Positions 43,883-58,482 of a stretch of DNA of 64,000 bases are shown here, piece by piece. The translations under genes were made by a program, and so were the position numbers. The notes beneath the pieces were generated by a model. It made no database searches. It worked only from the letters and a program-made list of their open reading frames with translations, and was not told where the DNA came from. The stretch lies in NCBI RefSeq assembly GCF_005862305.2, contig NZ_CP054021.1:3450501-3514500 (forward strand), given 5' to 3'. The DNA comes from Rhizobium indicum (lineage in GTDB: Bacteria; Pseudomonadota; Alphaproteobacteria; Rhizobiales; Rhizobiaceae). Position 1 is the stretch's first letter, and each line of letters begins with the position of its first letter.

Positions 43883-45625
43883 TTAGAAAAGCGCGTCGGC
43901 GAAAAGATCCTCGTCGTTTTCGGCTTTGGCGGTTTCGGCGGGAGCGGAGGTGCTGTCCTCGCTCGCCGGAATGATGCCGCGATGAATGCTGCGCTCCTGG
44001 ACCATCGTATAGTGCTTGAAGATCTTGCGGTCGAGCGGCGCGATCGTCTCAGCGAGATCGGAGATATCGGCGACATCGGTGCCGGCGACGCCTTCGAGCA
44101 TATCGGCGCAGCCGGCAAGGACTTCGCCCAGATTATGTTGGAAATCGAGCTTGCCGATCAGCAGGCTGATCTTGGTGGCGACCTCGCGACCGTTCTCGGC
44201 GAGCACCTTCAGCTCGTTTTCCATCACGTTGGCTGCAGAGCGGATGTTGCCGACGGCCGAGGTCAGGCTTTCTCCGAGATTGCCGGCTCCGGCATCGGTG
44301 GCGGGGGCGACGCGCCCGGCCGCAGCTTCGAGCGCCGGCAGGCCGTTGACGATGGCGTCGGCGGAATCGTCGAGCTTGCCGGCGAAGATGCGCAGTTCGG
44401 CGGTGACGACGTTGATCGACCTGCCTTCCTCGCCGAGCCGGCTACAGCGCAGGTTGGTATTCAACGCCATATAGTGAATGTCGGTCTTGACGGCGCGGAT
44501 GTTGCCGATCGCTTCGGAGAGCTTGGCCGCCGTACCGATCGTCGACTGGCTCACCTGGTCGGCCTGGCGGCTTGCCGTATCGACCTGCTTGACGATTTCA
44601 TGAGCGGCCGAAACGCTGGATTCCAGCGCGCGCATGAAGTTGCCGCCGGCCTCGCCACTCTCACCGCTCATCTGATCGCGCAGCTTGAGAATCTCCCGCA
44701 TGTCGTGGTCGAAACTCGCGATCGTCTTGACGACGTTCTCGGAATCCCGCTGGAAATTTGCGCACATGTCGCTCATCTGCGCCGCTGTCAGATGGTGAAT
44801 GACGTTCTGGAGGCGCTGGCGCGCGTCGGCGTCGAGTCTGGCGCCATCCTCGCCGGCAAAGAAATTTTCAAGCAGCGAAAAGGTGGCCTGCACATGCTCG
44901 ATGCGCTGGCGGGTGATATCGCCGATCTGCAGGGCGGACAGCGTCGAGGCGACCTTGCCCTGGACGGCGCGGGCAATTGCGCCGACCTCGCGGGCGATGA
45001 CGCCGAGATCCTTGCGGTGTCCGGCGATCTTGGAGGCATCATCGCGCAGGGCTCCGGCGACGGCCGGAACAGTATCGGCATAGCCCTTGGAAACGCCGGC
45101 GCCAAAGGAGGCGGCAAGCTTGACCTCCTTGTCGAGACTGTCGAGGTGCGTGGCGAAACGATTGACCTCATCGGTGCCGGAATAGATGCGCTCCAGGATC
45201 TCCTGGGCGAAGCCGGCGAATTCGGCAAGGCCGGCACCGGTAATCTTCACGGTCACCGCGAAGGTTCTGAGATAACGCATCGTCTCCTGCATGTCGGCGA
45301 CGTGCTTGCGCAGCTCTCTGCCGGTATGCGCCAGCGAGACGAGCGCCTGCTGCCGGTTTTCCTCGGTGACGGGCAGCGCCATCAGGCTCTCCACCGTGGC
45401 GCGGAGATCGGCGCTGGTGTCGCTCGCCTCCTTGTTGTCGAGCGTCGTGGTGACACTCTCGAGCGAGTTCAACAGACGGTTGAGGACATCCATCACCGAG
45501 AGCAGCACGGTACCGCCTTCGAGGAAACGTTCCTCGACCTGGCTACGAGCAGATTCCAGGGTCTGGCTGATGTCCCGCCCCGACGTGTAGGCTACAGCGT
45601 TCGACGATACCAGAGCGTGTGCCAC
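43883..45625 (-). CDS. Soluble MCP-like / putative CheZ-like chemosensory protein
   Basis: This 580-residue protein has no transmembrane segment. It is almost entirely helical, with coiled-coil and acidic C-terminus (ENDEDLFADALF). Residues 384-415 (IHYMALNTNLRCSRLGEEGR, then SINVVTAELRIFAG) align with the receptor tip of the neighbouring receptors ([20 protein letters not shown], then [11 protein letters not shown]). The CheA/CheW-contact Glu is Arg and the AARAGE core is altered. At 231-246, ALQIGDITRQRIEHV carries D236-x-T-x-Q240, the spacing of the CheZ catalytic D-L-T-x-Q. It diverges from the che operon across 341 bp. It may be a cytoplasmic adaptor or a CheY phosphatase. Both roles are inference. 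Confidence 0.75.
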   Translation of the reverse strand: MAHALVSSNAVAYTSGRDISQTLESARSQVEERFLEGGTVLLSVMDVLNRLLNSLESVTTTLDNKEASDTSADLRATVESLMALPVTEENRQQALVSLAHTGRELRKHVADMQETMRYLRTFAVTVKITGAGLAEFAGFAQEILERIYSGTDEVNRFATHLDSLDKEVKLAASFGAGVSKGYADTVPAVAGALRDDASKIAGHRKDLGVIAREVGAIARAVQGKVASTLSALQIGDITRQRIEHVQATFSLLENFFAGEDGARLDADARQRLQNVIHHLTAAQMSDMCANFQRDSENVVKTIASFDHDMREILKLRDQMSGESGEAGGNFMRALESSVSAAHEIVKQVDTASRQADQVSQSTIGTAAKLSEAIGNIRAVKTDIHYMALNTNLRCSRLGEEGRSINVVTAELRIFAGKLDDSADAIVNGLPALEAAAGRVAPATDAGAGNLGESLTSAVGNIRSAANVMENELKVLAENGREVATKISLLIGKLDFQHNLGEVLAGCADMLEGVAGTDVADISDLAETIAPLDRKIFKHYTMVQERSIHRGIIPASEDSTSAPAETAKAENDEDLFADALF

Positions 45626-45966
45626 TTTTATACCTTTTCTTAAAATACAGGCAATTCGACTCTATTTTTACGGGCAGGATGGAAACGTCCGGTAAACGCG
45701 GCGGGACTCGCCAGCGTTGTGATTAACGAAAGATGTCGATGGGTCCCGGGGAAAGTGTCACTGTCGCGTGGCGTAATTCAACATACTGTTTTTACTTTAT
45801 TTATTTCTAAATTTTGAGAAAAAAATACAACTTATCCCGGATGAGAATTGGGAGTCGCGGAACGCGCTATACGGCAGTTTCCTACAACCGCTGTTTACTC
45901 TGCATTAACGCTGTCGTGAGAGTCCTTTTAGGGTCATCAAGTATTTTTCTGGCCCAGGAGGCTGTA
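45626..45966. promoter_or_regulatory. AT-rich divergent promoter region of the che cluster
   Basis: This 341-bp gap between the 580-residue gene and the STAS gene contains no supported gene. Positions about 45780-45835 are strikingly AT-rich (tttttactttatttatttct), unlike the surrounding high-GC DNA. A frame from 45814 joins the STAS frame but has no ribosome-binding site. The true start is TTG 45967, after AGGAG (45956-45960). Confidence 0.6.
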
Positions 45967-46296
45967 TTGGATACTCAGAAGCAATATTACGAATCTATAA
46001 ATTTACCGGACGTGCTCAGTATTCGTAACGTGTCCGAACTATATTCAAAGTTTACTGATGAATTTCATAGCAATGATACAATCATCATCAGCATTCCCGA
46101 AGGCGCGGAAGCGGATCTGAGTTTCGTTCAACTCATCGAATCCTCGCGCCGCCAAGCAAAAGCCAAGGGAAAGACGTTCAAGCTTTCTTCGCCGGCCAGC
46201 GGCTCGGTCCTGAAGGTACTTGAGCGCGCAGGTTTCATCGAATCCTTCGATCATGAAGACGCAAAGTTCTGGTTGCATAAAGAGGTGACATTATGA
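45967..46296 (+). CDS. STAS-domain protein heading the che operon
   Basis: This 109-residue protein was started at TTG 45967, because AGGAG lies 6 bp upstream and the frame before it is not protein-like. The STAS/MlaB-like fold (IISIPEGAEADLSFVQLIESSRRQAKAKGKTFKLSSP, segment by segment, then SGSVLKVLERAGF) lacks the phosphorylatable D-S-S-G of SpoIIAA; the site reads IESSRR. It overlaps cheY by ATGA. STAS proteins occupy this place in several alphaproteobacterial che clusters, with unknown output. Confidence 0.8.
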   Translation: MDTQKQYYESINLPDVLSIRNVSELYSKFTDEFHSNDTIIISIPEGAEADLSFVQLIESSRRQAKAKGKTFKLSSPASGSVLKVLERAGFIESFDHEDAKFWLHKEVTL

Positions 46297-46661
46297 CTGC
46301 AAATATCCTGACTGTCGACGATTCCGCCAGTATTCGTCTGACCACCAAGGTCACGCTGACCAATGCCGGTTATAGTGTCACCGAGGCGGTCAATGGGGCA
46401 GAGGGCCTCGCGACGGCCAAGGGCAGCAGCTTCGATCTGATCGTGACCGATCTTAACATGCCTGTCATGGACGGGCTGACGATGATCGAGGAACTGCGCA
46501 AGCTGCCGGCGCAGGCCGGCGTCCCGATCATCTTCCTGACGACGGAATCGGACGCCGACCTCAAGGCGCGTGCCAAGGCCGCCGGCGCAACCGGCTGGCT
46601 GACCAAGCCGTTCGACCCGGAAAGCCTGGTGAAGATCGTGAAGAAGGTTCTGGGACGATGA
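46293..46661 (+). CDS. cheY: Chemotaxis response regulator CheY
   Basis: This 122-residue single receiver domain has the acidic pair D9-D10, phospho-acceptor D53 (IVTDLNMPVMDG), T83/T84 (FLTTES) and K105 (LTKPF). It has no output domain, so it acts by binding a target: a flagellar motor switch or another effector. It is coupled by ATGA to the STAS gene before it and the cheA gene after it. Confidence 0.95.
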   Translation: MTANILTVDDSASIRLTTKVTLTNAGYSVTEAVNGAEGLATAKGSSFDLIVTDLNMPVMDGLTMIEELRKLPAQAGVPIIFLTTESDADLKARAKAAGATGWLTKPFDPESLVKIVKKVLGR

Positions 46662-48715
46662 GTACGCTCGATCCCGTCGCCGTATTCCGCACGGAAGCCG
46701 CCGAATGCCTTGAAGCGATCGAGGCCGGTCTTCTCGACCTGACCCACCAGCTCGACAACAAGGATCTCGTCGACGCCGTGTTCCGCGGCCTCCACACGCT
46801 GAAGGGCTCCGGCGCAATGTTCGGTTTCGAGGCGCTCGCCGCCTTCACCCATCATTGCGAAACAGCCTTCGACCGCGTCCGAAAGGGCGAGGTCGCGGCG
46901 ACCAGCGAACTCGTCGCCGCCGTTCTCGCCGCGCAGGACCATATGCGGGCCCTAGTCGACCAGCCGGACGCCGATCATGGCGATACCGGGCATAAGCTTC
47001 TGGCGCAGCTGCAAGCCGCCGTCGGCGGCAAGGAAGCGGCGCCAGCAGCAGCGCCGGCCGCTGTTTCCGTACCCGCAGCCGTGCGTGACGCAGCGGCGAA
47101 GAAGAAGAACAGCTGGCGCATCCGCTTCAGCCTGCCCGCCAATTCGATGGCCAACGGCACCAACCCGCTCGGCCTGCTGGACGAGCTGCGCGATCTCGGC
47201 GAATGCACCGTGCGCGCCAACACCTCGGCCATTCTGCCCCTCGACGCGCTGGCTCCGACGGAACTCCACATTTCCTGGGACGTGACGCTGACCAGCGAGC
47301 AGGACCGCTCGGCGATCGACGACGTCTTCATCTTCGTGCTCGATGATATGGAACTCAGCGTCGAGGAGATCGACACGTCGGCAGCGGCAACCGCCGCTCC
47401 GGTCGAGGAAAAGGTTGCACCTGCCCCTGTCGTCGCGGCATCGGCGGCCGCCGTTTCACCAACCACCGTCCCGGAGTTCCGTCCTGTCGAGGCGGTTCCG
47501 GCCAAGCGCGAGGCGCCTGCCGCCGTCAGCCAGGCGAAGGCGGCCGAGAATGTCCGCGTTCCGGCCGAACGTCTCGACGAACTGATGGACCGCGTCGGAG
47601 AGCTCGTCATCGCGCAATCGCGCCTCAGCCAGCTCGCCAGCGCCAGCACCGATATTGCACTGCGCTCCGTCTCGGAAGAAATCGAACGTCTCTCCGGCGA
47701 ATTGCGCGACACGATGATGGTGCTGCGCATGGTGCCGGTCGCCACCCTGTTCTCCCGCTTCCGTCGCCTCGTTCACGATCTCGCTCGCGAGACCGGCAAG
47801 GTGATCGAGCTGGTGACGGAGGGCGAGAGCACCGAAGTCGACAAAACGGTCATCGAGCGTCTGGCCGATCCGCTTGTGCATCTGGTGCGCAATTCGATCG
47901 ATCACGGCCTCGAAACGCCCGCCGACCGCCTTGCCTCCGGCAAGACGGAAGCCGGCACGGTGACGCTTTTGGCCCGCCAGGCCGGCGGCGAGGTGATCAT
48001 CTCGATCAGGGACGACGGCCGCGGCATCAATCGTGAACGGGTGCGCGCCAAGGCGGAGTCCTCCGGCCTTATCCAGCCCGGCCAGCCGCTTTCCGACTCC
48101 GAGCTGCTGCAGCTGATCTTCGCCCCCGGCTTCTCGACGGCAGCCGCGATCACCAATCTGTCCGGCCGCGGGGTCGGCATGGACGTGGTGAAGAAGACGG
48201 TCGAGGCGCTCCGCGGCGCGATCGACATCGTCAGCGTGCCGGGACAGGGTTCGGAAGTGTCGCTGCGCATCCCGCTGACGCTCGCCATCATCGACGGCCT
48301 GCTGGTGCGCGTCGGTTCCGGCCGCTACGTCATCCCGCTCTCGGCGGTCGAGGAATGCCTCGAACTGTCGCTCGAGGAAGATCTTCGTTCGCGCGGCCGC
48401 AGCTTCATCTCGCTGCGCGACAGCCTGGTGCCGTTCCTGCGCCTGCGCGACCTCTTCCGCACCGGCACAAAACCCGATGTGCATCAGAAGGTCGTCGTTA
48501 TCTCCACAGGCACGGAGCGCGTCGGCCTCGTCGTCGACCAGATCATCGGCGACCACCAGACGGTCATCAAGTCGATGTCGAAACTGCACAATAACGTCGC
48601 GACCTTCTCGGGCGCCACCATTCTCGGCGACGGCAGCGTCGCTCTCATTCTCGACGTCGGGCACCTGGTTGCCGCGGGTCAGCAACAGGAGGCGCAATTG
48701 CGTGTAGCAGGATGA
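46658..48715 (+). CDS. cheA: Chemotaxis histidine kinase CheA
   Basis: This 685-residue protein has the P1/HPt domain at 1-105 with H46 (GLHTLKGSG), a short P2-like region at about 150-240, an Ala/Pro linker to about 295, and the P3 dimerisation helices at about 298-355 (VPAERLDELMDRVGELV). The P4 ATPase lies at about 356-540, with the N-box at N412 (HLVRNSIDHGLE), DDGRGI at 452-457 and GRGVGMDVV at 503-511. The P5/CheW-like domain spans about 545-680. All catalytic elements are intact. It overlaps cheY and cheW by ATGA. Confidence 0.96.
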   Translation: MSTLDPVAVFRTEAAECLEAIEAGLLDLTHQLDNKDLVDAVFRGLHTLKGSGAMFGFEALAAFTHHCETAFDRVRKGEVAATSELVAAVLAAQDHMRALVDQPDADHGDTGHKLLAQLQAAVGGKEAAPAAAPAAVSVPAAVRDAAAKKKNSWRIRFSLPANSMANGTNPLGLLDELRDLGECTVRANTSAILPLDALAPTELHISWDVTLTSEQDRSAIDDVFIFVLDDMELSVEEIDTSAAATAAPVEEKVAPAPVVAASAAAVSPTTVPEFRPVEAVPAKREAPAAVSQAKAAENVRVPAERLDELMDRVGELVIAQSRLSQLASASTDIALRSVSEEIERLSGELRDTMMVLRMVPVATLFSRFRRLVHDLARETGKVIELVTEGESTEVDKTVIERLADPLVHLVRNSIDHGLETPADRLASGKTEAGTVTLLARQAGGEVIISIRDDGRGINRERVRAKAESSGLIQPGQPLSDSELLQLIFAPGFSTAAAITNLSGRGVGMDVVKKTVEALRGAIDIVSVPGQGSEVSLRIPLTLAIIDGLLVRVGSGRYVIPLSAVEECLELSLEEDLRSRGRSFISLRDSLVPFLRLRDLFRTGTKPDVHQKVVVISTGTERVGLVVDQIIGDHQTVIKSMSKLHNNVATFSGATILGDGSVALILDVGHLVAAGQQQEAQLRVAG

Positions 48716-49221
48716 GTGCAACAGCAGCAGCCGAACGATTTGACAATCACTGGAACTATGCCGAGGAAGTCGAAGTCCTGACCTTCGATCTCAACGGCGA
48801 AACCTTCGCGCTGGAAGCGGTCATCGTCCAGGAAATCCTGGACCTGCTTCCCGAGACCGCGGTGCCGGGCAGCCAGCCCTTCGTCGCCAGCGTCATCAAC
48901 TTTCGCGGCAAGGTCATTCCGCTCGCCGATCTGCGTCTCGCCTTCGGGATGGAAGCGGCGGAGGCGACAATCGACAGCCGCATCATCGTCATCGAGATCG
49001 ATCTGCAGGGCGAGCAGACGCTCGTCGGCCTCAGGACCGACAAGGTGAACGAGGTGACGACGCTTGCAAAGTCCGCGAGCGAGGCCCCGCCGAGTGTCGG
49101 CATGCGCTGGCGCGCCGATTACATCAACTGCCTGGTGAAAAGGGGCGGAGAGTTCATCATTCTCCCCAATCTGCAGGCGATTTTTTCATCGAGGCGAGAT
49201 GCGGCGGGAGCCGCTAATTGA
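48712..49221 (+). CDS. cheW: Coupling protein CheW (first copy)
   Basis: This 169-residue CheW-like domain bridges CheA and receptors (EVLTFDLNGETFALEAVIVQEILDLL, VASVINFRGKVIPLADLRLAFG, MRWRADYINCLVKRGGEFIILPN). It overlaps cheA by ATGA and precedes the first receptor by 33 bp. A second CheW-like gene follows the receptors, so receptor-specific arrays are possible. Confidence 0.95.
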   Translation: MSATAAAERFDNHWNYAEEVEVLTFDLNGETFALEAVIVQEILDLLPETAVPGSQPFVASVINFRGKVIPLADLRLAFGMEAAEATIDSRIIVIEIDLQGEQTLVGLRTDKVNEVTTLAKSASEAPPSVGMRWRADYINCLVKRGGEFIILPNLQAIFSSRRDAAGAAN

Positions 49222-49254
49222 CGCTGAATGAATTCAACGAGGGGTTTGGGGACT

Positions 49255-50964
49255 ATGCGACTGACAATCAAGACGAAACTGGTGACCGCGTTCACCTTCA
49301 TCATTCTGATGCTCGTAGGCACCGCCGCTTACGGTATCTTCAGCCTTGGATCGCTGAATGACACGATCGATAAGCTTCTCGCCGGCCCGGCAGCCCGGCT
49401 CGATCTGGCGCAGCAGATCAACATTGCCCAGCTCGAGGAGATCCGCCAGCAGAAGAACCTGCTCACTGCCCGCAGCGCAGACGAGACGGCTGGCGCAATC
49501 GCGAAGGGCAATCAGGCCCGCAAGGACTTCACCGACGCCTTCAACCAGGTGTTGGAGCTGGCCACGGAAGAAGGCAAGGCGCGCTGGGCGCGCATCGCCG
49601 AACTTTCCAAGAGCTTCACGGCAGCCGACGATCAGATCCGGGAATATATGAAGGCCGGCAATGCCGAAGGCGCAAATGCCGTTTCCGTCACGACGGCGCG
49701 GGTCGCTGCCAACGACATCGACTCGACGCTCAGCGAAATCCTGGCACTTGAAAAGCAGCGTATGAAGGCTGCCGACGACGGCGCCGAGGCGCAGTACACG
49801 ACGACGCGCACAATGATGGTTGCGGTCGCCGCCGTTGCCCTGCTGATTGCTGCCTTTACCGCGTTCTGGATCGCCAGCACGATCAGCAAGGGCCTCGGCC
49901 GTGCCAACAGCGTGGTGCGCGAAGTGTCGGAAGGCGATCTGACCAAGATGGCCGATATCACCAGCCATGACGAAATCGGCGAACTTCTGGGCAACGTCAA
50001 TACGATGATCGAACGCCTGCGCGGCGTCGTCGCCGACGCACTGTCGGCCGCCGACAACGTCTCTTCCGGCAGCCAGCAGCTTTCGGCAAGCTCGGAACAG
50101 GTATCGCAGGGCGCTACCGAACAGGCGGCTTCCGCCGAAGAGGCTTCTGCCTCGATGGAGCAGATGGCCGCCAACATCAAGCAGAACGCCGATAACGCCG
50201 CCCAGACCGAAAAGATCGCCCGCCAGTCGGCCAAGGACGCGGAGATGAGCGGTGAAGCGGTGACGCGTGCTGTCGACGCCATGCGCACGATTGCCCAGAA
50301 GATCGGCATCGTCCAGGAGATCGCCCGCCAGACCGATCTGCTGGCTCTGAACGCTGCCGTCGAAGCCGCTCGTGCGGGGGAACACGGCAAGGGTTTTGCG
50401 GTCGTCGCCTCGGAGGTGCGCAAGCTTGCTGAACGCAGCCAGTCGGCCGCTGCCGAAATCAGCTCGATGTCGAGCGACACAGTCAAGGCTGCCGCCGATG
50501 CCGGCGACATGCTTGGCCGGCTGGTGCCCGACATCCGCAAGACGGCGGAACTGGTTTCCGAGATCAGTGCGGCCTGCCGCGAACAGGATATCGGCGCCTC
50601 GCAGATCAACGAAGCGATCCAGCAGCTCGACAAAGTGACGCAGCAGAATGCCGGCGCTTCCGAGCAGATGTCGGCAACCTCCGAGGAGCTCGCCTCCCAG
50701 GCCGAGGAGCTGCAGACCTCGATCGCCTTCTTCAAGGTCGATACGGCAGGCAGCGCACGGACCGGCGCCTACAAGGCCCAGCCAAAAGCTTCGACCAAGG
50801 TGATCAAGACCCCGGCTGCTGTCCGCAAACCCGCCCCGCAGGCCAACGGCCAGGGCCGTGGCCAGACGGTTTCGGCGCAGCAGCAGCGTCTCAAGGGCTT
50901 TGCTCTCGATATGTCGATGGGCGGTCCAGACGCCGGCGACGACGACTTTAGGGAGAGCGCATAG
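49255..50964 (+). CDS. Methyl-accepting chemotaxis protein, one HAMP unit
   Basis: This 569-residue receptor was started at ATG 49255 (MRLTIKTK). TM1 is at about 8-30. A four-helix-bundle (4HB_MCP-like) periplasmic sensor spans about 31-186, TM2 about 187-210 and a single HAMP about 210-262 ([20 protein letters not shown]). The signalling hairpin has the tip [20 protein letters not shown] followed by [20 protein letters not shown]. It ends in the shared tail [13 protein letters not shown], then ESA. The ligand is unknown. No NWETF-type CheR tether is present. Confidence 0.95.
50163..50318 (+). repeat. 156-bp segment identical to 54351-54506
   Basis: By direct base-by-base reading, these 156 bases of the first receptor gene are identical to the matching part of the third receptor gene (offset 4,188), including synonymous sites. 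The middle receptor differs at many wobble positions over the same codons. Confidence 0.9.
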
Positions 50965-51208
50965 GCGCTCCCCTGGCAAAAGCGCCTGAACGCTTTCGCC
51001 ATGTGATCCCTCGGGCTGCTCCGGTGGCCCGAGGCGGGATATCCCCCAACGCATGTAGGCGTTGGCGCTGCGATCGATAGATGTCCGGCTGCCGGGAAGT
51101 GAATGTAGTCGCTTTCCCCCTTTTCAGACACATCACTTTCACGCTCGACGCCCCACCGATGGGACGTGTCTCTATCCATTCGTTTTGACCGCAAACAGGG
51201 GGTCTCAC

Positions 51209-53131
51209 ATGCGTTTCACCATCAAGCTCAAATTGGGTCTTGCCTTCGGCATCATGACGCTGCTGCTGATCGGCATCGCGGTTTATGGAAGCCTGAGCCT
51301 CGGCACCTTGAACGATGCAAGCGGCAATATGATCGACGGCCCGATGCGCCGCCTGGAACTGGCGCTGAACGCCAATGTTGCCGAAGTCAACGCCATCCGC
51401 GCTCAGAAGAACGCGCTGCTTTCCACCGAACCCGACGCCGCTGCCGGTTTCTACAAGGAGGCCGACCAGAACTTGCAGGCGATGTTCGATGCCGTCGATG
51501 CCGGCCACGCCATCGCTTCGCCCGAAGGCAAGCCCTATTGGGAAAAGCTGCAGACGATCGGTGCGAAATTCCGCGACAGATCCGCCGAACTGCAGCAGCT
51601 TGACGCCAGGGGCGATCAAGCCGGTGCACTGGCGCTGTCGCTCGGCGACCTGCGCACGATGACCAACGACATGGGTGACGCGATTGCCGCACTCATCGAG
51701 ATCCAGCGCAAGGGCATGAAGGCGACCGATCAGTCGAACACCGATCTTTACAATTCGACCAAGCTGATCCTCGGCACCGCTTCCGGTATCGCCGTGCTCA
51801 TCGCTCTCGGCGCTGCACTGTGGATCACGCTCGGCATCAACAACGGTCTGCGGAAGATTACGACCGTCGTAAACGCCGTCGCAATCGGCGACCTCAACCA
51901 GAAGGTCGACGTCAAGACCAATGACGAGATCAAGGATCTCATCAACACGGTCAACACCATGACTGCCAACCTGCGCGCCACGGCAGCACTCGCCGATCAG
52001 ATCGCTATGGGCGACCTCAGTACCGATGCCAAGCCGCTTTCGGACAAGGATACGCTCGGCATCGCGATGCAGAGCATGATCTCCAACCTGCGGACCACCG
52101 CCGGCATCGCCGATCAGATCGCAAACGGCGACCTGACGGTGTCTCCGAAGCCGCTCTCCGACAAGGATGCGCTGGGCCTCGCCCTGGAGCAGATGGTCGA
52201 ACGTCTGCGCGGCGTCGTCGCCGACGCGATCTCCGCCGCCGAGAACGTCTCTTCCGGCAGCCAGGAACTCTCGGCAAGCTCCGAGCAGGTCTCGCAGGGC
52301 GCCACCGAACAGGCGGCTTCGGCCGAAGAGGCTTCCGCCTCGATGGAAGAGATGGCTTCCAATATCAAGCAGAACGCTGACAACGCGGCGCAAACGGAAA
52401 AGATCGCCCGTCAGTCGGCCAAGGATGCTGAAGCCAGCGGCGAGGCCGTCTCCCGTGCCGTCGATGCCATGCGCACGATCGCCCAGAAGATCGGCATTGT
52501 CCAGGAGATCGCCCGCCAGACCGATCTGCTGGCTCTGAATGCCGCTGTGGAAGCAGCACGCGCCGGCGAACACGGCAAAGGTTTTGCGGTCGTCGCCTCG
52601 GAGGTGCGCAAGCTTGCCGAACGCAGCCAGTCGGCTGCCGCCGAAATCAGCGCCATGTCGAGCGATACCGTGACGGCCGCCCAGGAAGCCGGCGATATGC
52701 TCGGCCGTCTGGTGCCCGACATCCGCAAGACGGCGGAACTGGTCTCCGAGATCAGTGCTGCCTGCCGCGAACAGGATATCGGGGCTGCCCAGATCAACGA
52801 GGCAATCCAGCAGCTCGACAAGGTGACGCAGCAGAATGCCGGTGCCTCCGAGCAGATGTCGGCGACCTCCGAGGAGCTCGCTTCCCAGGCCGAGGAACTG
52901 CAGACCTCGATCGCCTTCTTCAGGGTTGACATGGCGGGCGGGCGCCGCGATCGCACGCCGGCTGCAAAACTCACCGTCCGCAGCCGGGCTCCGGCCACAC
53001 CGCGCAAGCCGGCCAGCAAGGCGCCGGCCAATACGGTCGCCGGCCAGCAGGCCCGCGCCAAGGGGTTTGCCCTCGATATGTCGATGGGCGGTCCCGACAC
53101 GGCCGATGACGAGTTTAGGGAGAGCGCATAG
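51209..53131 (+). CDS. Methyl-accepting chemotaxis protein, three HAMP-like units
   Basis: This 640-residue receptor was started at ATG 51209 (MRFTIKLK) behind AGGGGG. TM1 is about 8-30, the 4HB sensor about 31-186 and TM2 about 187-210. Three consecutive HAMP-type units follow: about 210-258 ([19 protein letters not shown]), 258-297 ([18 protein letters not shown]) and 298-338 ([18 protein letters not shown]). The signalling hairpin is intact, with the tip as in its neighbours, and the tail is [14 protein letters not shown] 244-bp gap upstream, with no gene, may hold a separate promoter. Confidence 0.94.
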
Positions 53132-53325
53132 CGCTCCCCCGTTCGCAACTGTCGTGGGCCAGCCAGCCTGGCCCACGACGCGCACTCCGGCGCTCGCGTG
53201 CCGGCACGGAAGTCCGCCAATTTCCTTCCGTGGCATGTCTTTGCCTACTCGAATTTCTTTGCTGCATGATGCCGCGCGCCCCTGGACCCCATTTTATTGC
53301 TTCGCTCTCGGAGAGGTATATTGAG

Positions 53326-55134
53326 ATGCGTATTACGATCAAACTTAAGCTCGCAGCCGCATTCGGCTTTGTCATACTGTTGCTGGTAGGCAGCGCGGTC
53401 TATGGAATCATCAGCCTCAGTTCCCTGAACGATGCTGTCGGCAACCTTGTTTCAGGTCCTGCAAAAAGGCTGGAACTGGCTCTGGAGGCAAAGACTGCCG
53501 AGCTTAATGCCGTTCGCTGGCAGAAGAATGCCCTTCTGGAAATGGATCCCGAAGTGGCCAGGAAGGACTACCAGAACTCGGCGAAGAGCCTGGATGAAAT
53601 GGTGGCCTTCGCCACGGGCGGCCAACAGCTCGCAACCACCGAGGGCAAACCCACTTGGGACAGGCTGGTTGAGCTTGCCAAACGCTTCAATGAGAGCTCC
53701 AACAAGGTCGCCTCCATCCAGGAAAGCGGCGACAGGGCAGGGGCCGCGGCGCTTTCGTCGGGAGAGGTCCGCGTCCTCGTCGTGGAATTGGAAGAGGTTT
53801 TCGAGACGCTCGTCGCACTTCAGCAGAAGTCGATGACGCAAGCCGATGACGACACCGACATTCTTTATAGTTCGACGAAGAACATGCTCATCGGTATTGC
53901 TGTCGGCGCTTCCGTCATCGCGTTCGCTGCTGCGCTATGGATCGCGCTCGGCGTCAACAGCGGCCTGCGCAAGATCATGAACGTTGCCAGCGCCGTCGCC
54001 ATCGGTGACCTGAACCAGAAGGTCGAGATCAGGAGCAACGACGAGATCAAGGATCTCGTGAACACGATCAACGTTATGACGGAAAATCTTCGCAACACCG
54101 CGGAGATCGCCAATCAGATCGCAAACGGCGACCTGACGGTGTCTCCGAAGCCGCTCTCCGACAAGGATGCGTTGGGCATTGCGCTCGAGCAGATGGTCGA
54201 GCGCCTGCGCGGGGTTGTCTCCGACGCGGCCGCTGCCGCAGAAAATGTCTCGGCCGGCAGCCAGGAACTCTCCTCGAGCTCCGAGCAGGTGTCGCAGGGC
54301 GCAACTGAACAGGCCGCGTCGGCCGAAGAGGCTTCTGCCTCGATGGAAGAGATGGCCGCCAACATCAAGCAGAACGCCGATAACGCCGCCCAGACCGAAA
54401 AGATCGCCCGCCAGTCGGCCAAGGACGCGGAGATGAGCGGTGAAGCGGTGACGCGTGCTGTCGACGCCATGCGCACGATTGCCCAGAAGATCGGCATCGT
54501 CCAGGAAATCGCCCGCCAGACCGATCTGCTGGCTTTGAACGCTGCCGTCGAAGCCGCGCGTGCGGGGGAACACGGCAAGGGTTTTGCGGTCGTCGCCTCG
54601 GAAGTGCGCAAGCTTGCCGAACGCAGCCAGTCGGCCGCCGCCGAAATCAGCTCTATGTCGGGCGATACGGTCAAGGCCGCTCAGGAAGCCGGCGACATGC
54701 TCGGCCGGCTGGTGCCCGATATCCGCAAGACGGCGGAACTGGTTTCCGAGATCAGTGCCGCCTGCCGCGAGCAGGATATCGGCGCCTCGCAGATCAATGA
54801 AGCGATCCAGCAGCTCGACAAGGTGACGCAGCAGAATGCCGGTGCTTCCGAGCAGATGTCTGCGACATCGGAAGAGCTCGCGACCCAAGCGGAAGAACTG
54901 CAGACGTCGATCGCCTTCTTTAAAGTCGATACGGCAAGCAATCGCCAGCATCGCGTGCCGGCCGCCAAGGTCACGGTCCGCAGCCTGGCTTCCGCCGCCG
55001 GCCGCAAGCCCATGTCCAAGAAGCCGGCTGCCAACAGCGTTGCCGGCCAGCAGGCTCGGGCGAAAGGCTTCGCTCTCGATCTCTCGATGGGTGGTCCCGA
55101 TAGTGGGGACGCCGAGTTCAAGGAAAGCGCATGA
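53326..55134 (+). CDS. Methyl-accepting chemotaxis protein, two HAMP-like units
   Basis: This 602-residue receptor was started at ATG 53326 (MRITIKLK) behind GGAGAGG. TM1 is about 8-30, the 4HB sensor about 31-186, TM2 about 187-210. Two HAMP units lie at about 210-258 ([19 protein letters not shown]) and 259-299 ([18 protein letters not shown]); the second is almost the third unit of the preceding receptor. The signalling domain and tail ([13 protein letters not shown]) are shared. Its stop overlaps the second cheW by ATGA. Confidence 0.94.
54351..54506 (+). repeat. 156-bp segment identical to 50163-50318
   Basis: This is the partner of the identical stretch in the first receptor gene. It covers the methylation-helix region up to just before the signalling tip. 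Confidence 0.9.
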
Positions 55135-55613
55135 TCATGGCCACGACATCTCTGGAAGCGCAATTTGTGACCTTCAGCCTCGGCGAGGAGATTTTCGCCG
55201 TGCCGGTTGAGGTCGTACGGGAAATCCTCGACTATGCGGAAGCTTTCAAGATTCCGAATGGTCCTGACTATCTGCTCGGCCTGCGCGATGTGCGCGGGCA
55301 GGGCGTGCCGACGATCGACCTTCGATTGAAGCTCGGCATGACGAAGACCGTGCCGACACCGCACACGCGGGTGCTCGTCCTCGACGTTCCGATGGAAAGC
55401 CGGCTGCTGACGCTCGGCCTCGTCGCCGACCGCGTCTTCGAGGTCACGCCGTTCCGGCGCGAGCAGATCGAGGCAGCGCCCGATATCGGCGTGCGGTGGC
55501 GCTCGGACTATATCGCCGGCGTCGTTCGCCGTGAAAACGGCTTCGTCGTCATCATCGATCTTGCACGCTTGCTGTCGCGCGAGGACGCCTCGGCACTGCA
55601 ATCGGCGGCCTGA
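55131..55613 (+). CDS. cheW: Coupling protein CheW (second copy)
   Basis: This 160-residue CheW-like domain ([72 protein letters not shown]) differs clearly from the first copy. The start ATG 55131 overlaps the receptor stop; ATG 55137 (MATTSLEA) is also possible. It is coupled to the third receptor and lies 30 bp before cheR. Confidence 0.95.
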
Positions 55614-55643
55614 CCCGCGCATCAACTCGGAGTACTGCATTCT

Positions 55644-56501
55644 ATGAGTATGGCAGCAGCGGTGGAAACCCAATTGCCGGGTGACCGGATCAGCAAGCGC
55701 AATTTCGACAAGCTTGCCCGGTTCATCTACGACTATAGCGGCATCAAGATGCCGCCGACCAAGCTGACGATGCTCGAAGGGCGGCTGAGGCGCCGCCTTC
55801 GCGCAACCAACCACGCGACCTTCGACGATTATTGCGACTTCCTGTTCAATGAGGATGGCCTCGCCCAGGAAACCGTCTACCTGATCGACGTGGTGACGAC
55901 GAATAAGACCGACTTCTTCCGCGAAGCCAAGCATTTCGACTATCTGCAGAGCGTGGCGTTGCCGGCGATCGCCAATAGCGGCGTGCGGACCATCCGCACC
56001 TGGAGTTCGGCCTGCTCGACGGGGGCGGAACCCTACACGATGGCGATGGTGCTGGCGGAGTTCGCCGAAGGCCGCAATGACGTCTCCTGCAGCGTGCTGG
56101 CGACCGACCTTTCCACCGACGTGCTGCAGACGGCGCGCCGGGGCATCTACCCGGAAGATTTGATCGCGCCTGTGCCGCGCGATCTGCAGCGCAAATACGT
56201 GCTGACAGCCAAGCAGCCAGGTCGGCGGGAGGTGCGCATCACGCCGAAACTGCGCAGCAAGATCGGTTTTGCCCGTATGAACCTGATGGACGAGAAATAC
56301 GCGATCGGCGAACCGATGCACGTCATCTTCTGCCGCAACGTGCTAATCTACTTCGACAAACAGACTCAGGCCGGCGTGCTCAACCGCCTCTGCGCCTGCC
56401 TGGCGAAGGGCGGCTATATGTTCATCGGTCACTCCGAATCGATCACCGGCTTCGATCTGCCGTTGAAGCAGGTCTCGAATACGGTGTTTCAGCGTATCTA
56501 A
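55644..56501 (+). CDS. cheR: Chemoreceptor glutamate methyltransferase CheR
   Basis: This 285-residue protein transfers methyl groups from S-adenosylmethionine to receptor glutamates. It has an N-terminal helical domain (about 15-90, [32 protein letters not shown] segment by segment), SAM-binding [18 protein letters not shown] (about 115-130), and C-terminal [13 protein letters not shown] and MFIGHSESI. It is full length. The only receptor sites visible nearby are the three tandem receptors. Confidence 0.95.
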
Positions 56502-56502
56502 A

Positions 56503-56556
56503 GCGCATCGCGTCATCCCAAAACCGCTGCGCACTTCTGGACGGCATGCATTAGGG
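56503..56556. repeat. Possible short rhizobial intergenic repeat between cheR and cheB
   Basis: The segment gcgcatcgcgtc, then cccaaaaccgctgcgcactt, resembles a short repeat I recall scattered between genes of Rhizobium chromosomes. Inverted pieces (gcgca/tgcgc) are present. Identification is from memory, and copy number cannot be tested in this window. Confidence 0.35.
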
Positions 56557-56562
56557 GCATTC

Positions 56563-57660
56563 ATGGCTAAGAAAATCCGCGTTCTCATCATCGACGATTC
56601 CGCCAGCATCCGCCAGACGCTGACCCATGTGCTGGAGCAGGATCCCGATATCGAGATCATGGCGGTCGCATCCGACCCTTTCATGGCGGCGCGGAAGCTC
56701 CAGGAGGAGATCCCCGATGTCATCACGCTCGACGTCGAGATGCCGCGCATGGATGGCATCACCTTCCTGCGCAAGCTGATGTCGCAACGGCCGATCCCCG
56801 TCGTGATGTGCTCGTCGCTGACGGAAGCGGGTTCGGAAACGCTGCTCCAGGCGCTGGAGGCCGGCGCCGTCGACGTCATTTTGAAATCGAAGATCGGAGC
56901 GGCCGACAGCCTTGCCGACGATGCGATGCGTATTCGCGAAGTCGTCAAGAGCGCCTCGCATGCACGGCTTTCCAACGTGCGCCGCGCCGCCGGAACCATT
57001 CGCCCGGCTTCGGCGGAGGGGCCGGCCAAGAAGCTGACCGCGGATGTGATGCTGCCGCCACCGACGGGGCGGGCCATGGCTAAGACGACGGAGATGGTCG
57101 TCTGCGTCGGCGCCTCCACCGGCGGCACCGAAGCGCTGCGCGAGTTCCTGGAGGAACTGCCGGCCAATGCACCTGGCATGGTGATCGTCCAGCATATGCC
57201 GGAAAAATTTACTGCCGCCTTCGCCAAGCGGCTGAACGGGCTCTGCGAGGTCGAGGTCAAGGAAGCCGTCGATGGCGATCCGGTGCTGCGCGGCCATGTG
57301 CTGATCGCGCCAGGCGACAAACACATGCTGCTCGAACGCCAGGGTGCGCGCTACTATGTGAGCGTCAAGACCGGGCCGCTGGTGTCGCGACACCGGCCTT
57401 CCGTCGACGTGCTCTTCCGCTCGGCGGCGCGCTCGGCCGGCTCGAACGCCATGGGGATCATCATGACCGGCATGGGCGACGACGGCGCGCGCGGCATGCT
57501 GGAAATGCATCAGGCCGGCGCCTACACAGTGGCGCAGGACGAGGCGAGTTCCGTTGTTTTCGGCATGCCGAAGGAGGCGATCGCCAAAGGCGGCGTCGAC
57601 CGTATTCTGCCGCTCGATCAGATCGCTCGCGAAGTGCTGATGACACAACAGAAGTTTTAA
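56563..57660 (+). CDS. cheB: Chemoreceptor methylesterase/deamidase CheB
   Basis: This 365-residue protein has a receiver domain at about 5-125 with D11/D12, D57 ([12 protein letters not shown]) and K109 (ILKSK). A linker leads to the esterase domain at about 175-360, with the catalytic triad Ser185 (GASTGG), His211 (VQHMPEKF) and an Asp in [10 protein letters not shown] (306/307). It removes methyl groups or deamidates receptor glutamines. It is the last gene of the cluster, before a strong terminator. Confidence 0.96.
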
Positions 57661-57683: not shown

Positions 57684-57717
57684 AAGCCGGCGGTATCGCA
57701 CGATGCCGCCGGCTTTT
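57684..57717 (+). terminator. Intrinsic terminator of the che operon
   Basis: A 10-bp stem aagccggcgg/ccgccggctt (57684-57693 with 57706-57715) with an inner pairable loop is followed by TTTTGAT. It also faces the SDR gene that ends at 57742. Confidence 0.85.
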
Positions 57718-57741
57718 GATCATAGCCGTCAAGTTCTGTAT

Positions 57742-58482
57742 TCAGGCGAGATAACCGCCGTCGATCGTCAGGCTGGTGCCGGTGACGAAGGCGGCCTCGG
57801 CACTGACGAGATAGGCGGCGAGACCGGCGATCTCGCGGTCCTCACCCAGGCGGCCAAGCGCCATCAGCGGCTTGAGGCGCTCATGATCGTCCTCATTGGG
57901 GTTCATGTCGGTCGCCGTCGGGCCGGGCTGGATGTTGTTGACGGTGATGCCGCGTGGGCCGAGATCGCGGGCGAGGCCGCGGGTCATCGAGGCGATCGCG
58001 CCCTTCGTCATGCTGTAGACTGCGGAGGTCGGAAAGCCGCTGCGATCGGCGGTGACGCTGCCGATGGTGATGATGCGGCCGCCTTCCTTCATATGTCTTG
58101 CCGCTGCCTGGATGCCGACGAAGGCAGCGCGGACATTAATGGCGAACATCCGGTCGAAATCTTCGAGCGAATAGTCGTCGAGCGGGTTGAGGATGAGAAT
58201 CCCGGCATTGCTGACGAGAATGTCGAGACCGCCAAAGGTCTCGGCTGTCAGCGCGACAGCATCCTGCACGGCTTTCGCGTCGGCACTGTCGGCCCGGATC
58301 GCTAGCGCCCTGCCGCCGGCAGCCTCCAATTCGGCGACGATCGCCTTCGCCTTGTGCTCCGAGCTGGAATAGGTGAAGGCGACGGCGGCGCCGTCGGCGG
58401 CGAGCCTTCGGACGATGGCGGCACCGATGCCGCGTGAGCCGCCGGTAACGAGGGCGATCTTGGTGGAAAGGGGTTGAGACAT
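57742..58482 (-). CDS. Short-chain dehydrogenase/reductase, probable TetR target
   Basis: This 246-residue classical SDR was started at ATG 58482 (MSQPLST) after AGGAAA. The cofactor motif TGGSRGIG lies near residue 14, then NAGI, and the catalytic YSMTKGA (YxxxK); it ends TIDGGYLA. The substrate is unknown. The TetR-family gene just upstream on the same strand and a shared operator motif suggest repression by it. Confidence 0.9.
   Translation of the reverse strand: MSQPLSTKIALVTGGSRGIGAAIVRRLAADGAAVAFTYSSSEHKAKAIVAELEAAGGRALAIRADSADAKAVQDAVALTAETFGGLDILVSNAGILILNPLDDYSLEDFDRMFAINVRAAFVGIQAAARHMKEGGRIITIGSVTADRSGFPTSAVYSMTKGAIASMTRGLARDLGPRGITVNNIQPGPTATDMNPNEDDHERLKPLMALGRLGEDREIAGLAAYLVSAEAAFVTGTSLTIDGGYLA

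Follow-up and report, generated by a model that had tools for sequence, protein, structure and literature searches.

Fast removal of CheY-P is a requirement for working chemotaxis. In CheZ (PF04344), an AXXFQ block precedes the active-site Asp and the conserved C-terminus binds CheY; the active site of the Azorhizobium caulinodans enzyme is D165/Q169, according to the accessible text of PMC7750401. R. leguminosarum is described as lacking CheZ, and a CheT is reported in its Che1 cluster (accessible text of PMC8429497). CheT of Sinorhizobium meliloti, likewise an alphaproteobacterial protein with a DXXXQ motif, is reported to speed the dephosphorylation of one CheY; it is encoded in the main cluster and has a CheZ-like predicted structure, and a receptor-like hairpin is not part of the accessible description (PMC12654446). 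The second chemotaxis cluster of R. leguminosarum 3841, Che2 (RL4036 to RL4028, class F8), influences bacteroid development in pea, and its gene list as given in the accessible text starts at cheY3 (PMC7617929).

We analysed a window of 64,000 nucleotides, to which all positions refer, from a host in the Rhizobium leguminosarum group. A gene on its minus strand (43883..45625; GTG start at 45625, stop codon ending at 43883), correctly placed by the original prediction, encodes a soluble receptor-like protein of 580 amino acids with a CheZ-like motif and tail. Its nearest named relatives in a protein search, from Rhizobium johnstonii (98%) and R. leguminosarum (95%), are both called 'chemotaxis protein'. 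The gene is divergent from an operon on the plus strand that starts with a STAS-domain gene (45814..46296; Pfam STAS_2 at 25.2 bits, below the cut-off of 29.2) and continues with cheY (46293..46661) and cheA (46658..48715), followed by cheW, three mcp, a further cheW, cheR and cheB (48712..57660). The CheY, in which the Asp of LIVTDLNMP is D53, would be the likely substrate of the 580-residue protein. The arrangement fits Che2 of strain 3841, and both the STAS gene and the gene studied here are missing from the Che2 list published in the accessible part of PMC7617929. The STAS-like gene stays beside cheY in many loci and is probably RL4037 of strain 3841, which the accessible part of a transposon study lists as growth-impaired (PMC5118466). 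Directly past cheB lies a frame of 200 amino acids (57703-58305, plus strand) with no Pfam or NCBIfam match.

Judging from its sequence, we consider it probable (about 0.72) that the 580-residue protein is the dedicated CheY-P phosphatase of this F8 che system, with CheZ chemistry placed on a chemoreceptor scaffold. In line with the original prediction, the protein has no membrane segment: its highest 19-residue Kyte-Doolittle mean is 1.27, against 2.26-2.51 in the three neighbouring receptors. A receptor-like hairpin is common to the MCPs (PF00015) and the family, and when the family profile is compared with PDB sequences, the solved receptor structure 2ch7 ranks first (E 1.6e-15). Unlike MCPs, the protein stays under the Pfam MCPsignal cut-off (PF00015; partial match at residues 336-426, 26.7 bits against 34.6), carries K/R in place of the tip Glu, lacks the membrane segment and has a CheZ-like helix and tail; one distant family member (L003) barely passes the same cut-off with 35.4 bits. 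Pfam CheZ gave no match on the 580-residue protein (E ≤ 0.01) or on a distant member, and neither a CheC (PF04509) nor a CheX (PF13690) domain is among the Pfam matches of the protein. We did not file it as a receptor, because it falls below the MCPsignal cut-off and the tip Glu is missing, nor as a CheZ, because the Pfam CheZ match and the F-Q before the Asp are missing.

The CheZ-like active-site helix, recognized by its conservation and its match to CheZ in register, comprises residues 232-245 (L-Q-I-G-D236-I-T-R-Q240-R-I-E-H-V; 44891..44932, minus strand); residues 231-245 read ALQIGDITRQRIEHV and include D236 and Q240. The original prediction had pointed to these two residues as being spaced like the catalytic Asp and Gln of CheZ, which is the case (D236-I-T-R-Q240), and had proposed that their conservation in orthologues be checked. 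We pooled 249 sequences, namely the 580-residue protein, 165 proteins (the best 120 of 1014 from one search and all 45 from another) and 83 frames taken from loci; a fragment frame (L051) had been left out before duplicates were removed. This gave 236 distinct homologues, which form 61 groups when sequences are kept below 60% identity. None of the 236 deviates at D236 or Q240, nor at Q233, R241 or H244; at residue 238, 222 homologues have T, and the other 14 have A, V, S or I. Among the 61 group representatives, 11 columns are invariant, five of them within the motif. Eighty of the loci had been drawn through a pattern for the receptor tip, of which the Asp and Gln formed no part, and the distinct database proteins alone give the same result (156/156 for each residue). 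Two relatives from remote members of the class, 24% and 22% identical, carry QIGDITRQRLEHV and QAGDLTRQRLEHI at the motif.

For comparison with CheZ, we took 30 loci with Pfam CheZ matches in class genomes, each with a motif-bearing frame, and aligned 21 of them; many of these rows start at the stop codon upstream of the gene, so that their N-termini are noise. The consensus of the 21 alphaproteobacterial sequences is A-x-x-F-Q-D-[IL]-[TS]-G-Q-R-[IVL]-x-K, and their C-termini resemble SQDDIDALLASFD. The family was cut blindly into 35 windows of 75 columns, each of which was compared as a profile with the CheZ catalytic region. Only four windows, over residues 215-254, match (63-76%, E 2e-5 to 7e-5), and in them D236 and Q240 align with the Asp and the Gln of CheZ; the remaining 31 score at most 9.7%, and 86 ordinary receptor sequences windowed in the same way peak at 13.7%. 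The entire family gives only 21.5% against the catalytic region, and comparison of the whole-length family and CheZ profiles did not recover the motif (17%, in a different region). With an HMM of the CheZ helix, the top three ranks are taken by unrelated frames, and family members make up 49 of the best 130 among 15,757.

A D-[IL]-T-x-Q-R-[IL] helix is common to CheZ and the 580-residue protein, and so is a C-terminus of acidic and hydrophobic residues that follows a disordered stretch. They differ in length (580 against about 200-240 residues), in the two receptor-like hairpins, in the absence of a Pfam CheZ match and in the block ahead of the Asp, where AXXFQ is replaced by ALQIG, with the A retained and I-G in the place of F-Q. 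The original prediction had also held that most Alphaproteobacteria lack CheZ. This holds only roughly for the class, as Pfam CheZ exceeds its cut-off in 41 of 115 sampled genomes, but it does apply to the genome of the window, in which family-model searches gave no CheZ, CheC or CheX match anywhere.

The second of the two receptor tips in the chain (residues 384-415, HYMALNTNLRCSRLGEEGRSINVVTAELRIFA; 44381..44476, minus strand) is identified by alignment and conservation, with L-N-x-x-L-R-C-x-R-L-G at its core. As predicted, it is collinear with receptor tips and has R393 at the position of the receptor Glu, a residue that takes part in tip packing. It had been described as broken; we find it instead to be conserved with an altered consensus, M-[GA]-L-N-x-x-[LF]-[KR]-C-x-R-[LI]-G, in which C394 and G398 are present in 236 of 236 distinct homologues and residue 393 is K or R in 235. 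Tip conservation is in part due to selection, since loci came in through the tip pattern; in the distinct database proteins, residue 393 is K/R in 155 of 156. A tip that is changed yet conserved (K/R at 393 in 61 of 61 representatives), on a protein with receptor-like hairpins, would also suit a non-catalytic array adaptor or decoy, in which the tip enters or caps arrays while the motif helix and tail merely bind and hold CheY. We regard this as unlikely, because both catalytic residues are invariant and in CheZ register, and mere binding does not need both an Asp and a Gln. If the protein is a phosphatase, the changed tip may instead keep the enzyme on the receptor array or close to it, or sense the state of the array.

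The chain ends in DEDLFADALF (residues 571-580; 43886..43915, minus strand), a conserved terminus comparable to CheZ tails and likely a CheY-docking peptide. Relatives end in DIDDLFF, ELEDMLF or DVDFF, which are likewise acidic and hydrophobic. F or L closes the chain in 233 of 236 homologues; of the other three, one has a broken frame and two run off the end of a contig. Among 59 complete representatives, 57 carry D/E at two or more of the last nine positions. Further upstream, a family-conserved block of the form Y-T-M-x-x-E-R-x-x-H occupies residues 539-548 (43982..44011, minus strand). In the mechanism that we envisage for the predicted phosphatase, the flexible tail would dock onto the phosphorylated CheY of the same cluster, whereupon D236 and Q240 would enter the D53 pocket and Q240 would position the attacking water, as in CheZ.

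At the score thresholds used, at least one che gene is found in 74 of 82 family loci and cheA in 61, and a comparison with CheZ at E ≤ 1e-5 gave no matching frame in these loci or in the window. The gene often follows cheB on the same strand in Rhodospirillales, lies opposite cheB in Caulobacter, and in Rhizobiaceae and Nitrospirillum usually points away from STAS; with arrangements that vary so much among lineages, the linkage to che has outlived rearrangement. The eight loci that show no che gene include some that are cut short, and three (L041, L043 and L057) have long flanks without che genes, so orphan copies do exist. Together with L042 and L044, whose flanks are shorter, these may form an orphan branch with no recognizable che genes in the flanks. 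Full-length members occur in three of 289 sampled class genomes (682.7, 578.2 and 539.2 bits; the next match is partial, at 81.1), and the same three have the closest relatives of the CheA of this cluster (the window's own, then 770 and 729 bits, 57%; the next scores 446). These searches scored at most four candidates per genome, and three genomes are a small number for such a co-occurrence. Two of the three (G043 and G051) have CheZ genes elsewhere, and the protein is therefore not a genome-wide stand-in for CheZ.

These data also bear on whether a CheZ-type phosphatase might serve another receiver, such as the CheB of the cluster, a Che1 CheY or an unlinked response regulator. The gene adjoins cheB in many loci and a few loci have no che gene at all; against this stand the exact co-occurrence with one CheA type and the CheZ-like tail, the counterpart of which in CheZ binds CheY (accessible text of PMC7750401). 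We hold a different receiver to be improbable, and retain the CheY of the cluster as the likely substrate.

A profile search of the class also gave shorter proteins, in which an intact receptor tip, for example NATIEAARAGEAG, is followed by Q[FY]QDxxxQ and an IELF end. A protein search with one such short hybrid listed 120 relatives, named ones including Methylobacterium, Zoogloea and Uliginosibacterium. QFQDxxxQ is present in 110 of the 120, of which 108 end in [VI][EQ]LF or nearly so, and the other 10 resemble ordinary receptors. An alignment of 21 short hybrids (A4) shows no variation at the Asp, the Gln or E-L-F, and the hybrids have xxxFQ ahead of the Asp. Their profile matches CheZ in register, at 89.5% over the whole set (E 1.9e-6) and 96.8% by window (E 2.6e-10). 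Pfam CheZ matches nine of ten short hybrids at 12.6-28.8 bits, none of them reaching the cut-off (30.7 bits), and for two of the nine the highest-scoring stretch precedes the motif; newer precomputed Pfam data place CheZ beside MCPsignal in four of the 120 listed relatives. The precomputed accession PF28017, found on short hybrids P0193, P0196, P0199 and others, may be a new model that covers this region.

Across a phylum search, 16 of the top 20 loci contain [QH]Dx3Q by regular expression and three more EDx3Q by eye; the remaining one, L155, is without the catalytic Gln. This locus (L155 / L195, genome G043) holds a short hybrid in a che cluster in which the Gln is lost (NFQDAIKDHL), and the same genome also encodes the long form and gives four matches to Pfam CheZ. 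In 20 hand-picked short-hybrid regions, cheA is in reach in 16, often directly after the hybrid gene and cheY, and no separate CheZ is labelled. The Che2 cluster of Pseudomonas aeruginosa may offer a similar case: it starts with a receptor-like gene (CttP/McpA) upstream of cheY-cheA, a placement comparable to that of the short hybrids.

The short hybrids share with the 580-residue protein the hairpin, the DxxxQ helix, a YxM..R block, an acidic-LF end and che neighbours, and differ in being a single unit of about 340-530 residues with an intact receptor tip, whereas in the 580-residue protein there are two units, each of which has lost parts. They support the phosphatase reading by closing the gap between CheZ (96.8% by window) and the 580-residue family (98.8%). 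That the motif is only a structural feature of a receptor-like coiled coil, resembling CheZ by chance or by convergence without function, is very improbable: the match does cover only about 40 residues, is missed by whole-length comparison and coexists with unrelated ORFs that outrank the family under the CheZ-helix HMM, but it is register-exact, came from blind windows, is missing in ordinary receptors, and is accompanied by Pfam CheZ scores on the short relatives, the CheZ-like tail and che linkage. The original prediction, which had left the choice between a CheY phosphatase on a receptor-like coiled coil and a decoy adaptor, is partly supported. Its first option withstands the conservation check that it had proposed and gains from further sequence evidence (CheZ register, tail, che linkage, CheA co-occurrence, the short relatives that approach the Pfam CheZ cut-off, and a genome free of CheZ, CheC and CheX matches); its account of the tip and of the rarity of CheZ in the class is not borne out.

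New here is that the 580-residue chain resembles a tandem doubling of a shorter receptor-CheZ hybrid. Family profile columns 20-266 match the short hybrids at 98.8% (E 8e-17) across the tip and the motif, with the motif in register, and define a unit 1 at about residues 20-259 (44849..45568, minus strand; boundaries approximate, from profile columns) that consists of a receptor-like hairpin with a degenerate tip, followed by the CheZ-like helix. This tip, residues 119-150 (45176..45271, minus strand), was located by alignment to the intact tip of the short hybrids; the 580-residue protein thus has no intact tip in its motif-bearing unit. The second half of the family matches the short hybrids at 98.8% and 98.5% in two profile comparisons and corresponds to unit 2, about residues 290-567 (43925..44758, minus strand), a second receptor-like hairpin with the changed tip. 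Here the alignment pairs LIGKLDFQHNLGEVL with LIGSIQFQDVTRQRL, and YTMVQER with the YVMxxQR block, which extends to YVMxxQRxxH in the short hybrids. A decayed second CheZ-like motif is found at residues 486-503 (44117..44170, minus strand), with H497 and E501 in the places of Asp and Gln. Both D and Q are present at 497 and 501 in two of 236 homologues (L046 and P0165), which perhaps retain both active sites or reflect an accident of alignment.

As both halves align to the short hybrids, unit 1 appears to have retained the motif and lost the tip consensus, while in unit 2 a tip and the tail remain and the motif has gone. The most likely origin that the sequences suggest is that a shorter hybrid was duplicated in tandem, with reciprocal loss; two separate fusions could also have produced the two units, and a direct profile comparison of unit 1 with unit 2 is indeed weak (36%). 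Given such a history, one chain could adopt a pseudo-dimeric fold that has a single active site. A predicted single-chain model of moderate confidence (pLDDT 72.8, pTM 0.46) has two hairpins with turns at 131-133 and 395-398, the motif within a long helix (134-257) and a disordered tail. By sequence, we group the protein with the short receptor-CheZ hybrids, of which it is a doubled and reduced variant.

Our survey of titles and abstract starts in the open-licence PMC literature, a scope outside which most subscription papers lie, found no description of a receptor with a CheZ-like site. More tentatively, and at slightly less than even odds, we propose that a broad and apparently unnamed superfamily of receptor-phosphatase hybrids is the CheY phosphatase of many che clusters that have no CheZ. 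Its short members would insert their intact receptor tip into the array and so tie dephosphorylation directly to its signalling state, and its Rhizobium/Azospirillum/Caulobacter branch would have arisen by tandem duplication and reciprocal loss, giving a pseudo-dimer within one chain that has a single active site and a single changed tip. If CheZ chemistry is indeed joined to receptor hairpins, receptor arrays may carry their own phosphatase. In the organism studied here, a phosphatase on a receptor scaffold would supply the removal of CheY-P for the Che2/F8 cluster, and may be an overlooked way of ending the chemotaxis signal in a root-nodule Rhizobium.
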